A stretch of 64,000 nt of DNA, taken from Acidobacteriota bacterium. GTDB lineage: Bacteria; Acidobacteriota; Blastocatellia; RBC074. Positions 1 through 62,215 of this stretch are shown in pieces. The notes under the pieces are model-generated. The model had not been told where the DNA came from. It made no database searches and saw only the letters and a program-made list of their open reading frames with translations. Location of the stretch: positions 62,001 to 126,000 of the forward strand of contig JACPYM010000088.1 of the NCBI GenBank assembly GCA_016196035.1, in the 5' to 3' direction. The translations under genes were made by a program, and so were the position numbers. Within the stretch, counting starts at the first letter, position 1; each line of letters starts with the position of its first letter.

Positions 1-1612
1 CGAATTCTTCGCCCGCTTCGTCCTGGCTTTCGGTCACGCCATCGGAATAGATCACCAGCACATCACCGGGTTCGAGGTGCGCCATGCCTTCGTGATAATC
101 ACCAAAGGGCGTGATGCCGACCGGGAAGCCGCCGATGTCGAGCGTGGTGATTTCGCCGCTTGTGCGTACCAATAACGGCGAATTATGACCGCCGTTGATG
201 TAAGTCAGTTGATGCGTGCGCGGATCGAGTTCGCTGTAAAACAGCGTGACATAACGATTCGAGGGCGTGTTGTCGTAAATGTATTGGTTGATCTCGGTGA
301 CGATTTCGCTCGGCGCCAGCCGCGTCGTGCATTGCGCGCGCACCGCCGCGTGGATTGAAGACATCAAGAGCGCCGCGCCCGTGCCTTTGCCCGAAACATC
401 GCCCAGTGCAATCACGATGCGCCCGTCGCGTTTCTGGATAAAGTCGTAATAATCGCCGCCGACTTCGTAACAAGGGAAACTGACGCCCATCAAATCATAG
501 CCGTTGATGGCGGGCGGCGCTGCCGGGTGCAGCCGCAACTGAATTTCACTGGCGACCGCCAGTTCATTGGCCAAACGCTTCTGTTCGGCTTGCACATCCA
601 GCAGGCGCACGTTCTCGATGCGGATGGCCGCGACCCCGGCAATCAGCGTCAGCAATTCCAAATCGCGTTTGGTAAAACGATTGCTGTGCAGCGGGCTGTC
701 CACGTAAACCATCCCCAAGACGCGCTCTTCGATGGCGAGCGGGACAGCCATGATCGAACGGATGCCGCCGAGCATGATGGATTGATTGGCGGCAAAGCGC
801 GGATCGTGTTGCGCGTCGGAGGTCAGCAGCGCTTTGCGTTGTTGCAAAACCTGCTCGGTAATCGAGCGGCTCAACGAAACCTCGGTGCTGTTATCGCCGC
901 CGCTTGTTTTTTGCGCTTTGCAGACCAACTCTGCCGCGCCAATTTTGGCCGGCTCATTCTTTTTGCCTTCTGGCGTTTCCAGCAACATCACGTAGCCCCG
1001 GTCGGCCCGAATCGCCTGAAAGACGCAATCCAGCACTTGCGACAAGGTATCGTCCAGCGAGAGCGGCGTGAGCAAGGTCACACTGACGCGGCTGATGAGC
1101 GCGAGGGTGTCGTCCTGCTGCGTGATGATCTGGGCGCTAGGTTGGCTAATCGGTTGCTGAATGGCTTGCGCAATCAGCGTCTGATGGCTGCTGTCAATCG
1201 TGGTCAGCAGATTGGCTTGCGAATTGCTGACCGTGCCCGCGATGGTGACTTCGGTTTCCGATGGAGTGTAACTGTCGGCCAACAGAATTTGCGTGCGCCC
1301 CTTGGTGCGCGTGGTGTCGGCGCGATCATTGAATTCGATGGCGGTCTCGCCGATGCGAATCACGTCACCGTCTTTCAACATCACCGGCACCGTCATGCGT
1401 ACATCATTGAGCAAGGTGCCGTTGGCGCTACCCAGATCGCTGAGCCAGAAGCTGTCGCCCCGGCTGCGCACTTCGGCGTGCAGGCGCGAGGCGAAAGGGT
1501 CTTCGACACAGAGATCGTTGCGCGCAGAACGGCCAATCGTGATGCGCGAGCGATTCAATTCGGCGACTGAATCCCCGCCCGAAGGGGAAACTCTGACGAT
1601 CAGACGCGGCAT
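1..1612 (-). CDS. FHA-GAF-PP2C (SpoIIE/RsbU-type) protein phosphatase, C-terminus cut by window edge
   Basis: About 537 residues are visible from an ATG at 1612; the stop lies outside the window. An N-terminal FHA domain (about residues 20-95) carries the GRS, SRLHAEV and DLGSANGT motifs that bind phosphothreonine. A GAF domain follows (about 175-337), then a PP2C/SpoIIE phosphatase domain from about 350 with GGDYYDF, GDVSGKG, NGGHNS and YSDGVTE, which hold the metal-binding aspartates. The family dephosphorylates Ser/Thr substrates, often anti-sigma antagonists. The gene is downstream in the same direction as a Ser/Thr kinase with an FHA domain, so it may be the opposing phosphatase of that signalling cluster (inference). 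The domain reading is secure; its substrate is unknown. Confidence 0.9.
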   Translation of the reverse strand, partial: MPRLIVRVSPSGGDSVAELNRSRITIGRSARNDLCVEDPFASRLHAEVRSRGDSFWLSDLGSANGTLLNDVRMTVPVMLKDGDVIRIGETAIEFNDRADTTRTKGRTQILLADSYTPSETEVTIAGTVSNSQANLLTTIDSSHQTLIAQAIQQPISQPSAQIITQQDDTLALISRVSVTLLTPLSLDDTLSQVLDCVFQAIRADRGYVMLLETPEGKKNEPAKIGAAELVCKAQKTSGGDNSTEVSLSRSITEQVLQQRKALLTSDAQHDPRFAANQSIMLGGIRSIMAVPLAIEERVLGMVYVDSPLHSNRFTKRDLELLTLIAGVAAIRIENVRLLDVQAEQKRLANELAVASEIQLRLHPAAPPAINGYDLMGVSFPCYEVGGDYYDFIQKRDGRIVIALGDVSGKGTGAALLMSSIHAAVRAQCTTRLAPSEIVTEINQYIYDNTPSNRYVTLFYSELDPRTHQLTYINGGHNSPLLVRTSGEITTLDIGGFPVGITPFGDYHEGMAHLEPGDVLVIYSDGVTESQDEAGEEF

Positions 1613-1624
1613 AGTGGGAGTAAA

Positions 1625-1752
1625 TCAAAAGGCAAAAATCAAAAAGCAAAAATCAAAAGGGCGGCTTACAAGACTCCGATCATTCAATCACACTAAACTT
1701 TGCCTTTTGATTTTTGCCTTTTTGCTTGCTTGGATTTTGCCTTTTGCCTTTC
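1625..1752. repeat. Heptanucleotide array with inverted second arm
   Basis: Five tandem 7-base units of the type CAAAAGG/CAAAAAT/CAAAAAG fill 1626-1660. A second array at about 1698-1751 reads as the reverse complement of the same unit type, so the transcript could fold into a long AU-rich hairpin. It sits in the 143-base gap between the phosphatase and the upstream zinc-ribbon TPR gene. It belongs to the heptamer family described in the findings. Confidence 0.75.
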
Positions 1753-1755
1753 TAA

Positions 1756-3528
1756 CTACGGTTCCTGAAAACTGTTTTGATAGCCTTTGCCCGCAGCATT
1801 CTCTTTGCGCGCTTCGGGCTGTTTCGTTTTATCCGCCTGCACGGAGTTGAGCAATTCCTTCTGCTGCCGCTCGTTTTCCTTGCGCGCGGCCTTTTCCGTA
1901 TCTCTGGCCCCGCTCTGGGAAGTGCCGGCATAGATGCCGCTATCGCACTTCTTGTAATACTCATACGCCTTACCGGGCTGCCCAAGCCCGCGATACGAAC
2001 TGCCGAGAAAATAGTAAAGGTCTTTGTCACCCGGGGTCAGTTTGACGGCCTGTTGCAATTCGGCAACCGCCGCGCTGAATTCGCGGATGTTCATATAGCG
2101 CAACCCCAGTTCCTTGTGATGCGATGCCGCCACGTGCGGGTCGGGCGGTTCAAGCGGACGGACTGGATTCCAATTCAGCGCGGCCCGCGCGCCCGGCGCG
2201 GCAAAGGGGTTTTGGGCCACCAACGCTACCTGGGAGCGATTCGTCGCGCTGGGCGGCAGCACTGGCCCAACACGCTTTTGCCCGGCCACACGGCGCGGCC
2301 GCGTGGGGAAAGGCGTGCTGCTCGCCAAAGCGTTCAGCCCCAGCGTGCCTTCAATTTCTTCGATGGCTTCCAGCGCGCGGCTGGCTTCGGGGCTGTTGTG
2401 ATTGAGCGAGATGATGCGTTGATATTGTGAGCGCGCTTCGTTGACGTTGCCTTTGGCGCGGTGCAAATCAGCGACCTTGAGCCGGGCGCTTAAATTCTCC
2501 GGCGAGATTTTGAGCAAGCCATCATAAGCCCTGAGCGCATCATCCGGGCGGCCAGAGCTTTCCAGCGTTTCAGCCAGCAACTGGCGCGGCTCGGTTTGAT
2601 CGGGTTTCAATTCAATCGCCTTGTTCAGATTTTCTGCCGCTTGCTCCATCTGCCCAGTTTGCCGGGCCTGTTCGGCGACCTGCACAAGTTTGACGACTTC
2701 ATCGTCGGTCGAAAGCAGGTTGCGCTGTTGCGCGCCGGCATTCAATTGCTGCGCGCGTTGATTGCGGTAGAAATAGACGCCGCTGCCTAACAGCAAAAGG
2801 CCCAACACCGCCGCCGCCATGCGAATATAAAAGCCAGCCTGCGGATGTTCGCGCAAGCCCGAAGCCTCGGCCACCGCCGAAGACGCCGACATCGAGAGCT
2901 TGCCGGTATTCGAGACCAGGCTGGACAGCGCACCTGAATTGCGGCCCGCATTGCGCGGCAAGGGTGCGGTGCGCACGCGCGGCGCAGCGTTCAAGGCTCC
3001 CGAATTACGCGCGCCGCCGCCCACGCCGGTTTCGCTTTGTCCGGCAGCTTGCGCCAGCCGTTGCGAGAGCGTGCTGCTCACGGCCTGTTTGATTTGGCGG
3101 GCGTCTTCTTCTTGGAGTTGTTCGATGCGTTTCGCTTCGCGCATTTGCCCCGTTGACTCAGCCGGAGTTTGCAGCGGCACTTGCATCTCGGCAGTGCCCG
3201 CTTTGGGTAACTCGCCTGTGCGCGCCTTACCTTGCTCAGCAGATTTTTGAGCAGTTTCTTTCTCCGCCGACCTGGCAGGCGGGGTGGATGCGGTGACAAT
3301 CCGCAATTGCGGCTTAGAGGGCGAACTGGCACTCGCGGCGGCGCGGCCTGATGCAGCCCGGCCCGTCGCGGCTTGATTCGATGAGGTTGCTGAAGTTGAA
3401 GATTTAAGGCTCGACTGTGTGGCAGCCGGTTTGGCGGTTTGGCCATTCAGATCAATACCGCATTGGCGGCAGAACCGGGCCTTGGCGCCGTTGGCTGCTC
3501 CACAACTCCCACAATAAATGACAGTCAT
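1756..3528 (-). CDS. Zinc-ribbon TPR membrane protein
   Basis: A 590-residue protein. Residues 6-24 form a double-CxxC zinc ribbon (CGSCGAAN...FCRQCG). A long Ala/Ser/Gln-rich linker with low complexity follows, then one membrane segment at about residues 230-250 (IRMAAAVLGLLLLGSGVYF), then tetratricopeptide repeats from about 285 to 560, and a charged Lys/Glu/Gln-rich tail. The layout puts the zinc ribbon in the cytoplasm and the TPRs outside the membrane (inference). The zinc ribbon is shared by several proteins in this cluster (kinase, FHA protein, rhomboid). It is probably a scaffold or assembly factor; the specific role is unknown. The ATG at 3528 is preceded by a weak GTGAG. Confidence 0.85.
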   Translation of the reverse strand: MTVIYCGSCGAANGAKARFCRQCGIDLNGQTAKPAATQSSLKSSTSATSSNQAATGRAASGRAAASASSPSKPQLRIVTASTPPARSAEKETAQKSAEQGKARTGELPKAGTAEMQVPLQTPAESTGQMREAKRIEQLQEEDARQIKQAVSSTLSQRLAQAAGQSETGVGGGARNSGALNAAPRVRTAPLPRNAGRNSGALSSLVSNTGKLSMSASSAVAEASGLREHPQAGFYIRMAAAVLGLLLLGSGVYFYRNQRAQQLNAGAQQRNLLSTDDEVVKLVQVAEQARQTGQMEQAAENLNKAIELKPDQTEPRQLLAETLESSGRPDDALRAYDGLLKISPENLSARLKVADLHRAKGNVNEARSQYQRIISLNHNSPEASRALEAIEEIEGTLGLNALASSTPFPTRPRRVAGQKRVGPVLPPSATNRSQVALVAQNPFAAPGARAALNWNPVRPLEPPDPHVAASHHKELGLRYMNIREFSAAVAELQQAVKLTPGDKDLYYFLGSSYRGLGQPGKAYEYYKKCDSGIYAGTSQSGARDTEKAARKENERQQKELLNSVQADKTKQPEARKENAAGKGYQNSFQEP

Positions 3529-3960
3529 TGCTCACATCCCCACGGAAAATCCGAAGTTTGATTTTGTTGTACAAGCGCAGCTTCATACGGCGAAGCTGCG
3601 TGGGGCACAGCTTAATCATTCGTTGTCTGCCAAGCTCAGCCAGCCTCACACTAGAGCATCAACAAATTGACCTCCACGCTGACTGCACGGCCATTCCATC
3701 AATTCGGCAATGGACGCCGTTTGGCACTCTTCTAATCGCGTTCGAGCCGGAGGCGTTCCGGTGGGGGAACGACGCTATGCATCTGTTTATTCAACGGCTC
3801 GTCATCATTGCACGATTGACCGTGTGTCGCAACTCTACTGGAACTGCAAACTGACAAAAGGTGATTCCGGTACAAATTAAAGCATCCGCGTGCAAGTTTT
3901 GTCTGAGGTCACGACCAAGACATCAGCGATTTGTGACTCAAAATGAAGGCGTCGCAACCT
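3529..3960. other. Intergenic region without a convincing gene
   Basis: 432 bases between the TPR gene and the RDD gene. A hairpin is visible at 3576-3600 (CGCAGCTTC, 7-base loop, GAAGCTGCG). A 108-codon open frame on the plus strand has no recognisable family and no SD, so I do not call it. The stretch is less GC-rich than its neighbours and may hold the promoter for the minus-strand TPR gene. Confidence 0.5.
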
Positions 3961-4494
3961 TCATTCTTTCCCTAATTCTTTGACGACGAGCGTGCCCGCC
4001 AATTTATCGTGCCAGCCTTGTTGCTTGGCATCCCAAAGCGCCCAAAGCAGCCCTAAACCGCCACAAAGTAACGCCAGCGGATAACCGACGAAATGCCGCA
4101 ACGCGAGAGCACGAAAATCCAGCGGGCGTCCATCCGTGCGAATCACCCGGATGCCGATAAAGCGTTTGCCAAACGTCTGGCCCTCCGGTTCGGCGTAATA
4201 AACCAAATTCAAAAACAGCACGATGGCCGTCAACAAATAGCCGATCAGCAAGATCACATTGGCCGCCTCGGGCAATTCCCAGCGGCGTTTTAGGTAGTAA
4301 GCCACCAGCACAGTAAGCGCCAGTACCAGTAACGTTAAGATGTAATCCAGCAAAAACGCGCCGCAACGCAAGCCGATGCTCGCCAAGGCGACTTGTTTTT
4401 TGCCGGGCACGGCAGGCGGGTAAGAAAAATCTGTCGCCACCGCCGGGCTTATGGGTGACCTAGACATGCGAGGAGCGTTGGGAGTTTGGGGCAT
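3961..4494 (-). CDS. RDD family membrane protein
   Basis: 177 residues. The pattern LRCGAFLLDYILTLLV near residue 45 (the Arg-Asp pair at its start), then EGQTFGKRFIGIRV (about 105-118), and a C-terminal Asp-rich end (WDAKQQGWHDKLAGT) are the marks of RDD domain proteins. Three hydrophobic segments are visible. The family lies in the inner membrane; some members have been linked to ion transport, but function is mostly unknown. It lies between two zinc-ribbon signalling proteins on the same strand, so it may belong with them. An internal ATG at 4467 is an alternative start. Confidence 0.85.
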   Translation of the reverse strand: MPQTPNAPRMSRSPISPAVATDFSYPPAVPGKKQVALASIGLRCGAFLLDYILTLLVLALTVLVAYYLKRRWELPEAANVILLIGYLLTAIVLFLNLVYYAEPEGQTFGKRFIGIRVIRTDGRPLDFRALALRHFVGYPLALLCGGLGLLWALWDAKQQGWHDKLAGTLVVKELGKE

Positions 4495-4650
4495 GCAGTA
4501 ATTGTCAGTCGCGCACGAGCGCAGGGTTTTCCACCTGCGTGCGCTGTCAAAGGCAGGCCGGTAGGGGTTCGCGTAACGTACCTACCTGAGTTTCACGCTG
4601 CCAGACGATAAAGGGAAAATGAGCCGCTCGTTGTGCGCGTGACTGGTGCT

Positions 4651-6138
4651 TTAGGAAACCACGAATTTGAGCATGGTTTCGCCCAGCTTTAATTCATCGC
4701 CACTCATCAACGCGTGCAATTGGCCCTGCGGCAACTTGAGTTTGCCATTGATAAAGGTGCCATTGGCGCTGCCCAGGTCTTCGATAAAAAACTGGCTTTC
4801 GCGGGCGATGATCTTGGCGTGACGGCGCGAAACGCGCGCGGCTGGATCGTATTTCGACAAATCCACTTCAGGACGTATGCCGCGGTTGGGATCAACACGC
4901 CCAATCAGGCTTTCGCCCTCGGCGTTGAGCATAAACTGGACGTTCATTTCGCTCGTGCCCAACACGACCAGCTTCGCCGTCGAGCGCTGGCGGTGCCCGC
5001 AATAGGCGCAGAAAAGATCGCCCGGCGCCAATTCACGCCCGCAGTTGGTGCACGTTTGCAGCGGCGCGGGCGGCGCGGAATAGTCCATCTGGCGGATGAG
5101 CGGGGCGTGACCCTGCATACGGCGCAGGTGTTCGACCAGTTCATCGCCAAAGGCTTTGGCCGACGCAAAACGGTTTTCCGGTTTGTATTCGACCGAGCGG
5201 CAGAGCAACTCTTCCATCTCGGGCGTGATTTCGGGATTGACCTGACGCGGTTTCGGGTTCTTGGCAAAATCGAAGATCAGCAGCGGATTGTCCTGCGGGT
5301 CTTGCCCCGTCAGCAGGTGAAACATCGTCGCGCCCAGGCTGTAAATATCCGAACGCGCTTCGACATTCCCAGCGAACAACTCCGGCGGCGCGTACCCCAT
5401 TGTCCCGATGGCCGTCACGCCCTTAACGGTCGGCGCCACAAACCGCGCGATGCCGAAATCCACGAGCATAATGCGATTGGTGCGCGCGTCCACCATCAGG
5501 TTCGCCGGTTTCAGATCGCGATAAATGATCGGCGGATTTTGCGAGTGGATGTAATCGAGCACGTCGCAAATCTCGATAGCCCATTTGCTGACCGTCAGTT
5601 CATCCAGCTTGCCCCCGGCGGCGCGCTGCCGCGCGGCCAGATCGCCGCCGTCAATGAACTTCATGACCAGGTAATAGCGCCCGCGCGCCGTGTCGAAAAA
5701 GTATTGTAGGATGGTCGGAATCGAGGGGTGATCGAGTTGGGCGAGCAACTCGGCTTCGCGTTTGAAGTCGTCAATCGCCTTCGTGCGCGCCGAATCGTCG
5801 GCGAACATCTCGATCATTTCTTTGACCGCGACCTTGCGGTTGGCGAGGTTCTGGTCTTCCGCCATATAGACCGACCCCATGCCGCCGCCGCCAATGCGCC
5901 GCACGATCTTGTACCGGTCGGCCAACAACGTGCCGGGCGGAAGTTGTATGCCTGCCGTGTTATTGCCGGATGCGTTCATACTCAGGTGTGACGTTCGCCC
6001 ATCTCCTGTTACACCCCCCGTGCCCAAAATGCGGGACGGCGGCGGCGGCGCTGCTGCCAACTCCTGGGGCCATCCGCATTCGCCGCAAAACGGATCACCG
6101 GCTGTGGTGGGCTGGCCACATTCGGGACAGAATGGCAT
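4651..6138 (-). CDS. Ser/Thr protein kinase with two zinc ribbons and C-terminal FHA domain
   Basis: About 495 residues. It starts with a zinc ribbon (FCPECGQ...FCGECG). A Hanks-type kinase domain spans about residues 75-345: glycine loop IGGGGMGSVY, VAVKEM lysine, catalytic YRDLKPAN (Tyr replaces the usual His, common in bacteria), DFG, and the APPE motif. A second zinc ribbon (CTNCGR...FCAYCG) lies near 363-384 and an FHA domain near 395-495 (GRVDP, SRRHAKI, DLGSANGTFING). No transmembrane segment is seen, so it is probably cytosolic. The ATG at 6138 is preferred to the in-frame TTG two codons earlier. FHA domains in this kinase, in 6224-6979 and in the phosphatase at 1-1612 suggest one phospho-signalling circuit. 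Confidence 0.92.
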   Translation of the reverse strand: MPFCPECGQPTTAGDPFCGECGWPQELAAAPPPPSRILGTGGVTGDGRTSHLSMNASGNNTAGIQLPPGTLLADRYKIVRRIGGGGMGSVYMAEDQNLANRKVAVKEMIEMFADDSARTKAIDDFKREAELLAQLDHPSIPTILQYFFDTARGRYYLVMKFIDGGDLAARQRAAGGKLDELTVSKWAIEICDVLDYIHSQNPPIIYRDLKPANLMVDARTNRIMLVDFGIARFVAPTVKGVTAIGTMGYAPPELFAGNVEARSDIYSLGATMFHLLTGQDPQDNPLLIFDFAKNPKPRQVNPEITPEMEELLCRSVEYKPENRFASAKAFGDELVEHLRRMQGHAPLIRQMDYSAPPAPLQTCTNCGRELAPGDLFCAYCGHRQRSTAKLVVLGTSEMNVQFMLNAEGESLIGRVDPNRGIRPEVDLSKYDPAARVSRRHAKIIARESQFFIEDLGSANGTFINGKLKLPQGQLHALMSGDELKLGETMLKFVVS

Positions 6139-6223
6139 AACCAAACCGAAAAAGTTGAAAGCTCAAAACAAAAGCTGAAAGCAGGGTTGCGGTTTCGCAA
6201 AATCCGAGTCGGAGGCTCGACTT

Positions 6224-6979
6224 TCAGCTATTCAGGACAAATTTCAAAAACGTTTTTCCCACGATAATCTCGTCGCCATTTTTCAGGGGTTGCTTATTGC
6301 CGGGCAACAAGCGGGCGCCGCGATTAACAAAAGTACCATTGGTGCTGCCCAGATCTTCAATCGTGAATTGACTGTTCAGAAATTGAATGCGTGCATGGCG
6401 GCGCGAGACTTTCGCTTCGGGATCATCCTGATCCAAATCCACATCCGGGAAAATGCCGCCGTCGGCATCCCAGCGTCCGATCAGCGCTTCGTCGCCGGCC
6501 AGCGCAAACTCTTTGCCGAGTTTGCCGCCGCGTTGAATAACCAATTTGGCGCGTACCATAGACGTTCCCTCTGCCACTGAAACTGAGGTCGCATGCAAAG
6601 CCCCAGTTGAACCTTTAACCACGCTGGTCGCATTAGCCGCACTGTTGACGGCCGTTTGATTCCCAACACTCGCCTGATTCCCCAACGCTGACACCAGCTT
6701 CGGCGGCGTCGGGCGAGCAGGCGGCGCGCTCGCGATCACCGGGGCAGCCGGGGCGACTTTGGGCGGCGGCGCCGTGTAGGGAGTCGCGGGTTTCGGCGTC
6801 ACACTCTCGTGCACGAAACTGGGCGGGGGCGGGGGCACGAATTGCGGCGGAGGCGGTGCCGCAGACGGTTGCGCCAGTACCGCAAGCACCGAGGGCGTAG
6901 CACTTAATTTTGCGCCGCATTCATCGCAATACTCCGACCCATCCAGATTATCGGTGCTGCACTGCTGACATCTGATCAT
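6224..6979 (-). CDS. Zinc-ribbon FHA domain protein
   Basis: 251 residues. An N-terminal zinc ribbon (CQQCSTDNLDG...YCDECG) is followed by a Pro/Ala-rich linker (about residues 30-105), then a C-terminal FHA domain (about 145-251) with GRWDADGG, SRRHARI and DLGSTNGTFVN. It resembles the C-terminal half of the kinase immediately downstream and is probably a phosphothreonine reader for it (inference). GGAGG lies 11 bases before the ATG. It is the first gene of the minus-strand signalling cluster, divergent from 7322-7939. Confidence 0.88.
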   Translation of the reverse strand: MIRCQQCSTDNLDGSEYCDECGAKLSATPSVLAVLAQPSAAPPPPQFVPPPPPSFVHESVTPKPATPYTAPPPKVAPAAPVIASAPPARPTPPKLVSALGNQASVGNQTAVNSAANATSVVKGSTGALHATSVSVAEGTSMVRAKLVIQRGGKLGKEFALAGDEALIGRWDADGGIFPDVDLDQDDPEAKVSRRHARIQFLNSQFTIEDLGSTNGTFVNRGARLLPGNKQPLKNGDEIIVGKTFLKFVLNS

Positions 6980-7321
6980 ATCTCGTTTGCCTCCGCTTCA
7001 AGGCAACTGCACCTTCGTAAAATGCCCGGTTGATATGCCCGGTTGGGATGCTTGATTGAATGCGTTAAGAGTGGTTCAAGCTAACGGCGAGATGCCATAG
7101 CCATTCAAGAGTACAAACGCACAGAGTAAATCGCGCGTGCAAATCACATTTGCTTACATCTGCCCTTGCTGCTCACTAGACAACCACCTAAGGCATTCTA
7201 CAACGGCTCATTATGCTTATGTCAGAATTGTTTGCAACCGTTCGGCCCGGCAAATTGCTTTGCTTTCGACGCATCTGTTACCATCCGCAGGCTTGTGACC
7301 GTCATTTCCAATGAGACCTTT
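6980..7321. other. Divergent intergenic region
   Basis: 342 bases separating the divergent FHA gene and the lipoprotein gene. It must hold both promoters, but I see no sigma-70 hexamer pair good enough to call. A plus-strand open frame continues upstream of 7322 but has no family resemblance. CCCGGTTG(A/G)(T/G)ATG occurs twice at about 7024-7055. Confidence 0.4.
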
Positions 7322-7939
7322 ATGCCAAATCGCATCCACTTCCTGCTTTTTCTAGCGGCGCTCGCGGTCGCTCTCTCCTGCGGCACACGCACGCCGACCC
7401 GCGTGCCCGCCGGAACGCCGCCTGCCAGTCTGGATGTCAAACACATCCGCGAACTCTTGCAACACGTCGCGGGCGCCGACCTGAAACCGGCACAAGTCGA
7501 AATCAAAAGCATTGCGCCCGGCACCGGCAACGACAATGCCGTCGTCGAAGCACGCATCGAAACGGCGTTTCGGTTGCAGCGCGAGAACGGTGCTTGGAAA
7601 GTTGCCGAAGTGCGGTTGGGCGACCGCCAATGGGAATCTCTCGACTTAGTTGAAGCCGCAGTGCAGCACGAAAAAGAACGCCGCACCACGGGGTTGTTGC
7701 AACGGCTGGCCGAGGGACTGGAGGCTTACCGGCGTGAAAAGGGCCAGTTTGTCGCCACTGAAGACGTCAGTGTGCTGCTCGACCATTTGGCGCCGCGTTA
7801 TCTTGGCAATCCGCTACGCTTCGATTGGTGGGGCTCACAGTTCGTCTATCACGGCACACCTTCGAGCTATCAACTGCTTTCCGCCGGCCCCGACCGCAAG
7901 CCCGGCACCAGCGACGATTTGGTGGTTCGTAGCCAATGA
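7322..7939 (+). CDS. Predicted secreted lipoprotein with GspG-like C-terminal region
   Basis: 205 residues from the ATG at 7322, which gives a clean signal peptide (IHFLLFLAALAVALSC) with a Cys suited to lipidation; a longer open frame upstream lacks this. The middle is unrecognised. The last part (about residues 120-205) contains a single helix, then LGNPLRFDWWGSQFVYH and SAGPDRKPGTSDDL. This resembles the C-terminal part of major pseudopilins (GspG), where the Gly-Pro-Asp-rich loop binds calcium. It begins a plus-strand group with the membrane protein, rhomboid and TPR genes. Confidence 0.65.
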   Translation: MPNRIHFLLFLAALAVALSCGTRTPTRVPAGTPPASLDVKHIRELLQHVAGADLKPAQVEIKSIAPGTGNDNAVVEARIETAFRLQRENGAWKVAEVRLGDRQWESLDLVEAAVQHEKERRTTGLLQRLAEGLEAYRREKGQFVATEDVSVLLDHLAPRYLGNPLRFDWWGSQFVYHGTPSSYQLLSAGPDRKPGTSDDLVVRSQ

Positions 7940-7971
7940 ACTGTCGTCCTGAAAACTACTAACCCCTCTGC

Positions 7972-8454
7972 ATGGACATGCAATACGTTTCTGTCGAAGA
8001 CCAAAAAAGGATTGCCCAAACCTATCGCACAACCGTGATCATTGTGTTGGCCTTTTGTTTTACGCCCCTGTTATTGGTTGGACTGGGATATTTCATTGGC
8101 GCCAAGGGCGGCGCGATTCGGGATGCGGAAACCTACCTGCTGATGACCAAAGTGGCCTATAGCGGCGCCTTGATTGCCGGGCTGGCGGTGGTGGCTTTGC
8201 GGCGTTTCTGGATGAGTTTTATGCGCGGCGTTGCGAACTCAGTGCCCGCCACGTTAAGCAAGCTGCGCATACTGGCTCTGCTCAGTGCGGGTTTAGGCGA
8301 AGTGGTGGCCATTATTGGGTTCATTGCGTTTTCGTTGTCGGGTGATTATCAGTTTTGCTGGCGGTTAGGTGTCGTCGGTCTGCTATTGATGCTGTATGGC
8401 TTTCCGCGTCGCTGGGAGTGGGAGCGGCTGTTAGCGGCGCGCGCGCAAGCCTAA
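7972..8454 (+). CDS. Small four-helix membrane protein of unknown function
   Basis: 160 residues with four hydrophobic segments at about residues 21-43, 63-80, 100-122 and 126-142. No family is recognised. The start could be Met1 or Met3. It is 32 bases after the lipoprotein and 33 bases before the rhomboid protease, so the three are probably co-transcribed. Confidence 0.7.
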   Translation: MDMQYVSVEDQKRIAQTYRTTVIIVLAFCFTPLLLVGLGYFIGAKGGAIRDAETYLLMTKVAYSGALIAGLAVVALRRFWMSFMRGVANSVPATLSKLRILALLSAGLGEVVAIIGFIAFSLSGDYQFCWRLGVVGLLLMLYGFPRRWEWERLLAARAQA

Positions 8455-8487
8455 GCGCCCGCGCCGTTCACTGGATTTGAGGTGAAG

Positions 8488-9801
8488 ATGTCTCAGAATG
8501 ATTTGAAGATGTGCCAAACTTGTCGCGCGCTAATTCCGGCCAACGCGCCGCGTTGCGAGATGTGCGGCGCAGAGGGCCATTACGCCGCACGCGCGCGCGG
8601 TACGGAAAGCGAAACCTTTGGCCTCTTTGCCCATTGGCCAGTGACGACCTTATTGCTGACTGCCAATGTTGTGATTTATGCGTTGGCGCTGCTTTATCAA
8701 ATGCAACTCTTCACGCAAGCGGGTGAAGCACAAAGCTTCTCGCTCACACCTTACCCGTATGTGAACGAACTCTTCGGCTCCTCGCTGCCAAACATCCGGC
8801 AAACAGGCGAATGGTGGCGCTTGCTGGCTTCCTGTTTTCTGCACGGCGGGCCGATTCACCTGCTCTTTAATAGCATGGCGCTGATTCAGGCGGGCCGTCT
8901 CGCTGAAGAAGTTTACGGCCGTGCCCAATACATTTGTCTGTATGTGGTCACGGGAGTTGCTGGCAATTATCTCGCGATTATGTTCGGTTCGCGGGTGGTC
9001 GGCGCGTCGGGCGCCATCTTCGGCCTGATTGCCGCGTTGGCCATCTATGGCTATCGACATTCCAACAGCGCTTTGCGGAAGGATATGATGTATTGGTTGA
9101 TGTACGGGCTGGCGATGAGTTTTCTCCCGGGCATCAGCATGGCCGCGCACATGGGTGGCGCGGTCGCCGGGGCCGCGCTGGCCTTTGTCTTGCCGGATCA
9201 GGAACATTTGCGCAAAAGCTTCACCCGCACTCGTCTCGCCCAAGCCTTCGGGCTGGTGGCTGGCTTAATGATCCTGATGACAGCCGTCATCGCCGGGCGT
9301 AATGTCTTAGGGCAAAGCGAAGCGCGAAAAATCAGAAGCGGGGCGGATCAGGTTTATTCGGTTTGGGTGAGCCATCTGAACTTGGGCACATATCTGAAGC
9401 TGGCCTTGCAACAGGCCGCCCCGCAATCCGCCCATCCAAATGAGCCTGAGTTGGCAGTGCTGCTAAAAGATATAGATCAAATGCAAAAGGCTTTGTGCAG
9501 CGACATTGGGGCGTTTGAACGCTTGCCTGCGGACGATGCGGCTAGCGCGCAATTGCAGCAGCGCGTGGCGCATCACTTACGCGCGCGGTGTAACCAAGCC
9601 GGTGCTGCTGAAGCGCCGAAAACCGAGGCGGAATTACAAGCGAGTCTCAATGCGTATCAGGTACAGGATCAAGAGTTGAGGCAAATCATGAAAGAGTACG
9701 ATCAATGGCTGGCCGAAAAGGCCGCGACCTTGCACGTGCCGTTAGAAAGACTAAAACCGCAACTGGTGGAAAAAGACGAAGCGCCAGAGGCCAAGCGGTA
9801 G
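8488..9801 (+). CDS. Rhomboid family intramembrane serine protease with N-terminal zinc ribbon
   Basis: 437 residues from the ATG at 8488; GAGGTG directly upstream decides this start over the in-frame GTG at 8482. An N-terminal zinc ribbon (CQTCRAL...RCEMCG) precedes six or seven membrane segments (about residues 50-265). The catalytic Ser is in GASGAIFGL (about Ser174) and the catalytic His in AAHMGGAVAG (about His221); the HGGPIHLLFN motif of helix 2 is also present. A long C-terminal soluble region (about 270-437) is helical and charged. Rhomboids cleave transmembrane substrates inside the bilayer; the substrate here is unknown. The zinc ribbon ties it to the proteins encoded at 1.7-7 kb. 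Confidence 0.9.
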   Translation: MSQNDLKMCQTCRALIPANAPRCEMCGAEGHYAARARGTESETFGLFAHWPVTTLLLTANVVIYALALLYQMQLFTQAGEAQSFSLTPYPYVNELFGSSLPNIRQTGEWWRLLASCFLHGGPIHLLFNSMALIQAGRLAEEVYGRAQYICLYVVTGVAGNYLAIMFGSRVVGASGAIFGLIAALAIYGYRHSNSALRKDMMYWLMYGLAMSFLPGISMAAHMGGAVAGAALAFVLPDQEHLRKSFTRTRLAQAFGLVAGLMILMTAVIAGRNVLGQSEARKIRSGADQVYSVWVSHLNLGTYLKLALQQAAPQSAHPNEPELAVLLKDIDQMQKALCSDIGAFERLPADDAASAQLQQRVAHHLRARCNQAGAAEAPKTEAELQASLNAYQVQDQELRQIMKEYDQWLAEKAATLHVPLERLKPQLVEKDEAPEAKR

Positions 9802-12941: not shown

Positions 12942-13020
<79 letters not shown>

Positions 13021-31261: not shown

Positions 31262-32506
31262 ATGATTTTCTGCCAACGTTGTAAAAAGGCGAATTCGCTC
31301 GATGCCGACTATTGCGAAAGTTGCGGCACACGGCTCTTGCTCGTCTCGCATACCTTTGACAACGCGCTTTTTGAAGGGCCGGAAAATCCGCTGGAAGAGC
31401 ACCTGCTCGAACGCATCAGCGCGCTTGAAGGTGCCCTCACTCGTGCGAATGAACGTTTTGAACAACTGCTTGATTTGGCGCAGCAGCAAGCGACCGGCAG
31501 CTTTTACGACCACATGATGTTGGAATCGCTGACCGAGATTCTGACCGAGATGCGCGCGGTAGACCCTGAGGAATTGGAAACCCGCTGGCGCAATCGGGTG
31601 GCGCGGCATTACGAAGAGACGGCTGAGCGTGAACGGTTGGATGAGCGCTGCGACTTGATCATCGGCGCTTATCGGGGCGCCCAGCGCGAGCAACGCGAAC
31701 AATTCATTGATCTGGTCGAAGAAGGCACGCTACTCATCAGCGAGGGCCGCACGCGGCGCGGCTTGCGTATGCTGGAAAGCGCGCTGGCACTGGATGAACA
31801 CAACGCCGAACTCTGTTTCACCGTCGGCGAATACTATTTCCATCTGGGCAAAGCCAGCGAGGCCACCTCGTATCTGCAACGCGCGTTGCATAAACGCAGC
31901 GATCATTTTGGCGCGCAATTGCTGCTGGGCTTGCTTGACAGCGACGAAGGCCAGACCGAATCGGCACGCACGCATTTGCAACACGCGCTGGCGCTGGATG
32001 ACAACTCATTTGCCGCGCACTACAGCCTGGGCCGCCTGCTCATCAGCCATGGCAAAGTCGAGGAAGCCGTCACGCATCTCAAACGTGCGCTCACGCTCAA
32101 ACCCACGCCGGAAATGCATTATCTGGTCGGACGCGCTTACTGGGAGCAGGGCCGCGAAGAGCAGGCCTTGAAGCATCTGCAAAAAGCCATCCGTCTGGAC
32201 CCGCGCTTTGATGCCGCGCTGTACAGCCTCGGCTGGATTCACTGGCAAGCCAATCGCACCAATGAAGCGCGTGTGCATTTCCAGGCTGCCTATGACATCA
32301 ATCCGCACGACGCGCTCTATCGCAACGCACTGCAAGCCAACGCGGGTGAACCACTGGCGACACCGCCTTCGCTGGGTTGGTCAAGTCTGCTCAAGCCGCT
32401 GGGCCAGCGGCGCAAAAGCAAAGTCAACGAGACGCGCTTTGCGGAATTGTTATGGCGCGATTTGAATTCGCTGGCCGGGCTGCCGCGCAAAGTTTCGCGG
32501 AAATAA
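31262..32506 (+). CDS. Zinc-ribbon TPR protein
   Basis: 414 residues. An N-terminal zinc ribbon (FCQRCKKAN...YCESCG) is followed by a helical segment with coiled-coil character (about 50-150), then about six TPR units (about 155-350; e.g. [40 protein letters not shown]). No membrane segment or signal peptide, so cytosolic. It shares the zinc-ribbon plus repeat design with the protein at 1756-3528. Function unknown; TPRs suggest a protein-binding role. Confidence 0.85.
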
Positions 32507-61720: not shown

Positions 61721-62215
61721 ATGATGAATCGCACACAGCTTGCCACTCCGGCCCCATCGTCACACCTGCGTCACCCGCACCGCCGCCGCCGCGAACGCGG
61801 TGTGCAAATGATCGAAGTAGTTTTGGTCATGCCGTTGCTGCTGATGCTGATGGCGTCAACGGCGGAACTCGGACGGTACTTTTATACTTACTCGGTACTG
61901 GCGCGCGCCACACGCATTTCGGCGCGTTATCTGTCCGGCAGTTTGCTGAACACTGCCAATCACACGGCGGCGAAAAACATGGCGGTCTGCGGGTTGACGA
62001 CGACATGCAGCATTGCGGTTGTGCCGGGCTTGACCACGAGTAACATTGCGATCACCCCGGCAGCCAATCCGACCACCTGGCCGAGCACGGTGACCGTGAG
62101 CATCACCAGCTACAACTATCAACCGATTTTCAACCTGGGCAATTGGACGGGCGTGAGTTGGACATCAGTCGCGGTCAAACCGAGTACGACGATGCGCTAT
62201 TTATTGAATAACTAA
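61721..62215 (+). CDS. tadE: TadE-like minor pseudopilin
   Basis: 164 residues. Basic N-terminus with RRRRERGVQMIEVVLVMPLLLMLMASTAELGRYFYTY: the G-x-x-x-E-V prepilin-like cleavage region and hydrophobic helix of TadE. The C-terminal part is beta-rich. It overlaps the next gene by one base (TAATG). Confidence 0.9.
   Translation: MMNRTQLATPAPSSHLRHPHRRRRERGVQMIEVVLVMPLLLMLMASTAELGRYFYTYSVLARATRISARYLSGSLLNTANHTAAKNMAVCGLTTTCSIAVVPGLTTSNIAITPAANPTTWPSTVTVSITSYNYQPIFNLGNWTGVSWTSVAVKPSTTMRYLLNN

Follow-up and report, generated by a model that had tools for sequence, protein, structure and literature searches.

Zinc ribbons are common in bacteria and mostly unexplained, and FraH of heterocyst-forming cyanobacteria combines a ribbon with an FHA domain. 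The available text on ArnA of Sulfolobus (PMC12852372) describes a ribbon that alone holds unphosphorylated ArnB and an FHA domain that holds ArnB phosphorylated by the kinase ArnC, which drives the change. The accessible part of a second account (PMC7159879) describes actinobacterial ribbon–kinase/PP2C/vWA gene sets as GTPase-centered systems. Here, we analyze a gene block that reaches into a stretch of 64,000 nucleotides (the window; positions 62,001 to 126,000 of contig JACPYM010000088.1, our C88) in the 9.59-Mb draft genome of an Acidobacteriota bacterium of the class Blastocatellia (GCA_016196035.1). Six co-directional genes on the minus strand encode, from left to right, a PrsW-type intramembrane protease with a double ribbon and an FHA domain, an FHA–GAF–SpoIIE phosphatase, a ribbon–transmembrane (TM)–TPR protein, an RDD membrane protein, a ribbon–Ser/Thr kinase–ribbon–FHA protein, and a ribbon–FHA protein, referred to below as the reader. 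The window edge falls inside the block, and the PrsW gene lies outside the window, to the left; coordinates there refer to L001, a stretch of the same genome that extends left of the window. The block belongs to a real, class-wide conserved signaling locus, and we consider it on balance probable that this locus is a Ser/Thr phospho-signaling module of Blastocatellia in which partners are read in two steps, by ribbon and then by FHA domain.

Conservation of the locus across Blastocatellia

The window kinase (4651..6138) finds matches at E ≤ 1e-60 in 77 of the 78 class genomes and in all 67 of the high-quality ones, and 71 of the 78 hold exactly one such match, with at most 19 candidates scored per genome. 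The loci examined comprise that of the window and 75 fetched from other genomes, spanning eight families (f1–f8); G042 gave no match, and G049 gave a fragment of 202 amino acids (aa) that was excluded. Genes were labeled by running family profiles, built from first-pass matches in the same loci, on all frames. The reader gene (6224..6979; 251 aa), which in the window lies immediately upstream of the kinase gene with a gap of 79 bases, is the next labeled gene to the kinase and on the same strand in 76/76 loci. The SpoIIE gene (1..1612, its 3′ end cut by the window edge; whole gene L001:13844-15613, minus strand, 589 aa) is present in 73/76, the three misses (G016, G039, and G056) being contig ends, and the RDD gene (3961..4494) lies between in 69/76, with all seven misses in genus g17 of f4. 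The check set by the initial annotation, whether the gene order is kept in Blastocatellia, thus comes out positive, and conservation goes beyond what was claimed.

A second set of loci was taken from the 164 contigs that the reader profile finds, of which the best 80 were used; its genomes partly overlap those of the first set. Here the kinase follows the reader in 79 of 80 (78 by script and L235 by eye), and in L204 the contig ends at the reader. An apparent kinase–SpoIIE gene fusion in L228 (one frame of 1100 aa) is an artefact, as the frame holds a run of X that corresponds to the Ns of an assembly gap. Near-always present, mostly single-copy, and fixed in order in the sampled genomes, the locus is a good candidate for the core Ser/Thr signaling system of Blastocatellia; no publication on it or on such signaling in this class was found in the literature covered, which leaves out most subscription journals.

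Run over 297 genomes of the phylum, the reader profile matches 161 at E ≤ 1e-12. Matches below 1e-50 are confined to the class, and the best outside it reaches 6e-28. Among 20 outside-class places that were fetched, nine matched proteins start like a cNMP-binding domain (by eye), one frame is unclear, and in ten the FHA protein was unrecovered by the open reading frame (ORF) caller. The window kinase has no match among the genes of these 20 stretches, the FHA proteins themselves excepted. One record named Actinomycetota (L218, JAAFHI010000202.1) carries a Blastocatellia reader; its contig name says Acidobacteria, and it is probably mislabeled.

Boundaries of the block

The right-hand flank served as a control for the recurrence of neighboring genes, in a count that excluded five extra loci (L152–L156). 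Within the fetched stretches, the T2SG-like gene, an unknown 160-aa gene, and a second TPR gene recur only in G047, and none of the other 75 loci matches the rhomboid gene; we do not count these four genes as members of the module. On the left, the PrsW protein (L001:12501-13793, minus strand) has a ribbon–FHA part with matches at E below 1e-30 in 19/78 genomes (all 11 of f1, five of six of f7, one of f4, and two of f8). In the genome of the window, a dnaB-like gene, assigned by eye, adjoins the PrsW gene on its left. L156 (G032) has a PrsW–FHA gene that is apart from the kinase locus, again with a dnaB-like gene only a few genes away, which weakens the case for a clean left boundary; PrsW may have been linked to the dnaB side for a long time.

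Inside the window, the intergenic gaps measure 143, 432, 156, and 79 bases, on a single strand throughout. A promoter scan of 1500-8600 returned one site where 2.7 were expected, and an Rfam scan of 1-35000 returned nothing beyond one tRNA (12946-13017). The TPR gene (1756..3528) encodes 590 aa with an N-terminal zinc ribbon (3457..3513; CGSCGAANGAKARFCRQCG) and one TM-like segment and has in-block matches only in f1 and f8 genomes.

Domains and motifs of the kinase, reader, and phosphatase

The kinase, for which a start at ATG 6138 is preferred over TTG 6144, carries an N-terminal ribbon (6073..6129; found in 60/75 orthologs), a middle ribbon (4996..5052; in 75/75 near-full-length orthologs), and a C-terminal FHA domain (4681..4863). 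A simple hydropathy scan finds no TM-like segment in 76/76 orthologs. The catalytic motifs DFGIAR and YRDLKPxN are conserved in 75/75 and 74/75, and the FHA motifs GR, SRxHA, and NGT in 75, 74, and 75 of 75, respectively; these motifs speak for an active kinase and for FHA domains competent to bind phospho-Thr. PADLOC matches the kinase with many PD-T4-6 and other kinase models, the best stretches lying in the kinase domain region, and has no match for the reader, SpoIIE, TPR, or PrsW proteins.

ORF and domain scans bear out the five neighboring minus-strand genes and the domains named for them by the initial annotation, with one correction: the gene taken for a PP2C with FHA, which is cut by the window edge, does carry an FHA domain (1349..1543), but its phosphatase part falls in the SpoIIE branch of the PP2C/PPM superfamily and not in the classical PP2C branch (Pfam SpoIIE, E 3e-41). 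The SpoIIE motifs GGDYYD, DxSGKG, and DDxT are found in 72/72, 69/72, and 72/72 orthologs, and the phosphatase is probably active. Its FHA domain is of a type of its own, forming a separate group (SPO) in the FHA tree with support of 98/94.

The reader has the features of an ArnA-type protein, that is, an N-terminal C4 ribbon (6914..6970; consensus MIRCxxCGTDNLDGSEYCDECG across 20 aligned orthologs), a Pro-rich linker, and a C-terminal FHA domain (6257..6472) with a conserved acidic insert, GIFPDVDLDQDDPEAK. The C4 ribbon is present in 73/73 readers, a linker of at least 10% Pro in 63/73, and the FHA motifs GRW, SRRHA, and SxNGT in 73, 67, and 73 of 73. In the AlphaFold (AF) model, the predicted local distance difference test score (pLDDT) is 92 for residues 1-20, above 90 over much of the FHA domain, and lower in the linker, and the predicted FHA fold is clear. 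The reader scores 48 bits with the model of TagH, an FHA protein associated with the type VI secretion system (TIGR03354; cut-off 120); genes of that system were not searched for.

In a tree of 66 FHA domains, in which the small number of alignment columns leaves many forks unsure, the kinase tails and readers form one clade (support 100/99), with the FHA domain of the window kinase as sister of that of the reader. The genome of the window has 18 other FHA domains, of which 17 lie outside this clade and the eighteenth, from a tail-only paralogue (C30:54431), groups with the kinases. This C30 paralogue of the kinase ribbon–FHA tail (L002:4069-4767) has a different N-terminus, and the second Cys pair of its ribbon is lost.

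Zinc ribbons of the block

We counted at least 40 ribbon-bearing frames in the 9.59-Mb genome (from 44 rows at E ≤ 0.05, with 150 of 222 candidates scored); four of these fall in the six-gene block and 36 outside. The hypergeometric probability of this enrichment is ~8e-9 if 8000 genes are assumed, a value that takes no account of the ribbons having been the reason for choosing the locus. Across the class, ribbon identity at non-Cys positions is 0.35-0.51 within ortholog groups and 0.17-0.28 between them, against a background of 0.23. The groups also differ in the residue pair between the last two Cys, which is D-E in 47/59 unique reader ribbons (the most uniform group), A-F/H/Y in 39/56 unique middle ribbons of the kinase, G-E or P-Y in 30/51 unique N-terminal ribbons of the kinase, and R-x or P-x in 17/19 unique RDD ribbons.

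Ribbons on the kinase N-terminus, the RDD protein, and the TPR protein are gained and lost between families without pairing. The N-terminal kinase ribbon was not seen in f4, f6, f8, and two of the seven f2 genomes. The RDD protein, without a ribbon in the genome of the window, carries an N-terminal one in 19 orthologs (seven in f2, six in f7, three in f8, two in f4, and one in f6). Both occur together in f2 (5/7) and f7; the kinase ribbon occurs alone in f1, f3, and f5, and the RDD ribbon alone in f6, f8, and two f4 genomes.

A proposed two-step reading and its alternatives

Two-step reading by ribbon and FHA domain is the best-supported candidate mechanism for the locus in our analysis. We propose the reader, and the kinase tail by its homology, as two-step holders because of the behavior of the ArnA ribbon and FHA domain and a mapping by cysteine register. 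Among solved chains, those of ArnA are the top match to the reader profile overall, when the ribbon and FHA pieces are combined (E 7e-18). The contact hairpin of ArnA given in the available text (D31-Q41) corresponds in our own mapping to G14-K24 of the reader, which includes D19-E20, a pair whose conservation is 86-89% among 59 unique ribbons. In the proposed sequence of events, the kinase would likely phosphorylate a Thr on a partner; the ribbon of the reader or kinase tail would first hold this partner loosely and independently of phosphorylation, and the FHA domain would then hold it tightly through the phospho-Thr, as ArnA holds ArnB. The SpoIIE phosphatase, controlled by its GAF and FHA domains, would likely reset the state. 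More tentatively, the RDD, PrsW, and TPR proteins might recruit the soluble enzymes to the membrane, and the individual ribbons might each bind a partner of their own.

Several observations weigh against this reading. The FHA domain alone fits GarA/OdhI better than ArnA by sequence (single-piece E ~1e-16 versus 1e-8), and VIA-align of the reader model, with an aligned span of the FHA domain only, gives Z scores of 16.9 for MDC1 and 15.3 for GarA versus 13.8 for ArnA. The piece that matches the ArnA ribbon (E 1.5e-5) extends into the low-complexity linker, the mapped hairpin leaves out N11, another well-conserved residue of the ribbon (89%), and in the AF model the kinase ribbons have block pLDDT values of 61-81, which is moderate confidence. 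No vWA of the partner type was found (0/76), which means that a different kind of protein must be docked, and RDD is missing from seven genomes of g17. On the phosphatase side, a third SpoIIE motif fits a strict, narrow pattern in just 30/72, and the GR of its FHA domain is present in 63/72; SpoIIE-type phosphatases are best known for acting on STAS anti-anti-sigma factors.

The initial annotation had assigned the same double-CxxC ribbon to the block proteins, the rhomboid (8488), and the TPR protein at 31262 and suggested that it may be a common docking tag that groups them. Four of the six block genes do bear ribbons, far above the genome rate, and relatives also carry ribbons on RDD and on a pseudokinase–PP2C protein of the same locus (see below). 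We compared 19-residue motifs by BLOSUM scores against 24 ribbons from 20 fetched loci of the same genome, omitting two ribbons of differing spacing, that of the pseudokinase–PP2C protein (11 residues) and the first one of PrsW. The five standard-spacing ribbons of the block score 11.0 among themselves and 10.9 against the 24 others, which score 10.4 mutually (p=0.47), so that as far as such motifs tell they fall into unrelated groups; the exception is the N-terminal and middle ribbons of the kinase, alike above background (mean 17.5 versus 7.3 and 4.8). For the rhomboid, Zn_Ribbon_1 (E 0.045) and DZR_2 (E 0.0018) match only weakly and stay under their cut-offs, and its ribbon is an outlier that scores -4.4 to the block ribbons; the 31262 ribbon, 24 kb away, reaches 22.5 bits against a cut-off of 25. 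Since within-block similarity equals background and the ribbons differ between their last two Cys, we reject, at the level of sequence, a shared tag, which is also at odds with the unpaired occurrence of the kinase and RDD ribbons and with the lack of a rhomboid match in the stretches fetched for the other loci; it is very unlikely to explain the block. By sequence, the ribbons are enriched in the block yet are not recognizable copies of one tag, and of the earlier proposal the matched kinase, reader, and phosphatase stand and the common tag does not. Nor does it seem likely that the ribbons lack partner specificity and serve as generic modules with a structural or a metal- or redox-responsive role, although 36 of the at least 40 ribbon frames lie outside the block, most ribbon residues vary between groups, and the C30 paralogue of the kinase tail does without its second Cys pair: the reader ribbon keeps N11, D19, E20, and L25 without exception in an alignment of 20 sequences from eight families, which goes beyond the needs of zinc binding, and the ArnA ribbon is a demonstrated protein-binding surface in the available part of PMC12852372.

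Two further alternatives concern the system as a whole. The SpoIIE branch is used in sigma-factor partner switching, and an FHA–GAF–SpoIIE protein that dephosphorylates an anti-anti-sigma factor, with the kinase side feeding in, would fit the strong SpoIIE family match and the NCBIfam RssB and SpoIIE models, which match the phosphatase below cut-off; no STAS or anti-sigma domain occurs in the 16 scanned proteins (neighbors in other families were not scanned), and we regard partner switching as distinctly improbable here. A metabolic switch of the GarA/OdhI type, in which the reader is phosphorylated near its FHA domain, closes on itself, and releases a target enzyme, has the advantage that, among solved structures, these proteins are closest in sequence to the FHA part (E ~1e-16; VIA Z ~15). 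A pattern search finds a GarA-like ETT/S site before the FHA domain in only 3/73 readers, however, and the NCBIfam OdhI model gives 62 bits against a cut-off of 200, leaving such a switch little chance of being the answer.

That single ribbons dock partners is plausible by the ArnA precedent. A bolder reading, which we offer as speculation and do not expect to hold in full, would treat the ribbons as distinct protein "addresses," each with its own conserved second knuckle that, whether or not phosphorylation has taken place, docks a different member of one kinase–reader–phosphatase–protease assembly tethered to the membrane, with the FHA domain locking on phospho-Thr, the kinase as a class-wide soluble hub, and PrsW–FHA adding phospho-controlled intramembrane proteolysis in some families. 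The PrsW–double ribbon–FHA architecture suggests such phospho-controlled membrane proteolysis, and the locus lends itself to testing directly whether zinc ribbons of bacteria act as docking surfaces.

Comparison with known systems

With a cyanobacterial vWA protein as query (not ArnB, so that a distant vWA could be missed), no match was found at E ≤ 1e-15 in 76 class genomes and none at E ≤ 0.001 in the genome of the window; both control plasmids were found, these being close relatives of the query (67% and 42% identity). A tblastn search in plasmids matched 21 records, and the three that were read, from Tolypothrix (NZ_CP063787), Gloeothece (NC_014534), and Deinococcus radiodurans (NZ_OV024759), hold vWA, ribbon–FHA, PP2C, and kinase genes in blocks of varying order. 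These share with Blastocatellia the reader architecture and an insert-bearing FHA domain, and two of the three kinases have an N-terminal ribbon. In the D. radiodurans plasmid (L279:4393-5336), the reader ribbon and FHA parts are two abutting annotated genes, which looks like a frameshift of the record or strain.

The plasmid PP2C proteins align with a ribbon–pseudokinase–PP2C protein of Blastocatellia (G028, f8), for example with 27% identity across 444 aa (E 8e-34, for a database of 12 sequences), and a pseudokinase part in the plasmid proteins is inferred from this alignment. The Blastocatellia gene lies upstream of the reader in f4 (G003 and G008), f6 (G005), and four f8 genomes. All seven in-locus copies read HN for HRD and FDR or FNQ for DFG (by eye), and in the G028 copy Pfam recognizes a partial kinase domain and a PP2C domain, the latter above the Stp1 cut-off. 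Matches covering at least query residues 133-602 occur in 14/76 genomes, that is, the seven in-locus copies (two in f4, one in f6, and four in f8) and, on other contigs, all seven of f2; relatives over most of the length were found in none of f1, f3, f5, and f7. The genome of the window has only PP2C-domain matches, the nearest at C11:42144 and C59:111102. On C59, a second ribbon–FHA protein (L008:3070-4964) is directly followed by a PP2C gene; on C11, a ribbon–kinase protein (L268:1670-3847), which probably has a TM segment, lies ~2.2 kb from a PP2C-domain frame; and C16:18200-23400 (L267) holds three adjacent N-terminal-ribbon genes that look like tandem paralogues.

Among described systems, the ArnA–ArnB pathway with ArnC of Sulfolobus acidocaldarius resembles the locus in its ribbon–linker–FHA reader, the profile matching pieces in both halves of ArnA, and, according to the available text of PMC12852372, in its Hanks kinase. 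It differs in that the Blastocatellia phosphatase is SpoIIE-type and not PP2A, the vWA partner type was not found, the kinase lies next door with a ribbon–FHA tail of its own, and SpoIIE and usually RDD belong to the locus. The actinobacterial sets, in the accessible part of PMC7159879, likewise place a zinc-ribbon-fused kinase beside a phosphatase gene but have vWA and PP2C, whereas the locus of the window is without PP2C and no such vWA was found; GTPase genes were not searched for. GarA/OdhI share the sequence and fold of the FHA domain, but the Blastocatellia reader has an N-terminal ribbon and no conserved ETT/S site. PknB/Stk1 share the kinase domain (1o6y, E 5e-35), whereas the Blastocatellia kinase is without a TM-like segment, scores 195 bits with the NCBIfam PASTA-kinase model (cut-off 450), and has a ribbon–FHA tail instead. 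The plasmid blocks differ in their vWA genes, in a PP2C that the locus of the window is without, and in order, with the kinase before the reader in D. radiodurans, and SpoIIE and RDD are found on the Blastocatellia side. Because vWA was not found in Blastocatellia, we describe the locus as an apparently vWA-less variant with FHA–GAF–SpoIIE and usually RDD, and one ribbon–FHA architecture links archaeal ArnA, the cyanobacterial and Deinococcus blocks, and Blastocatellia.

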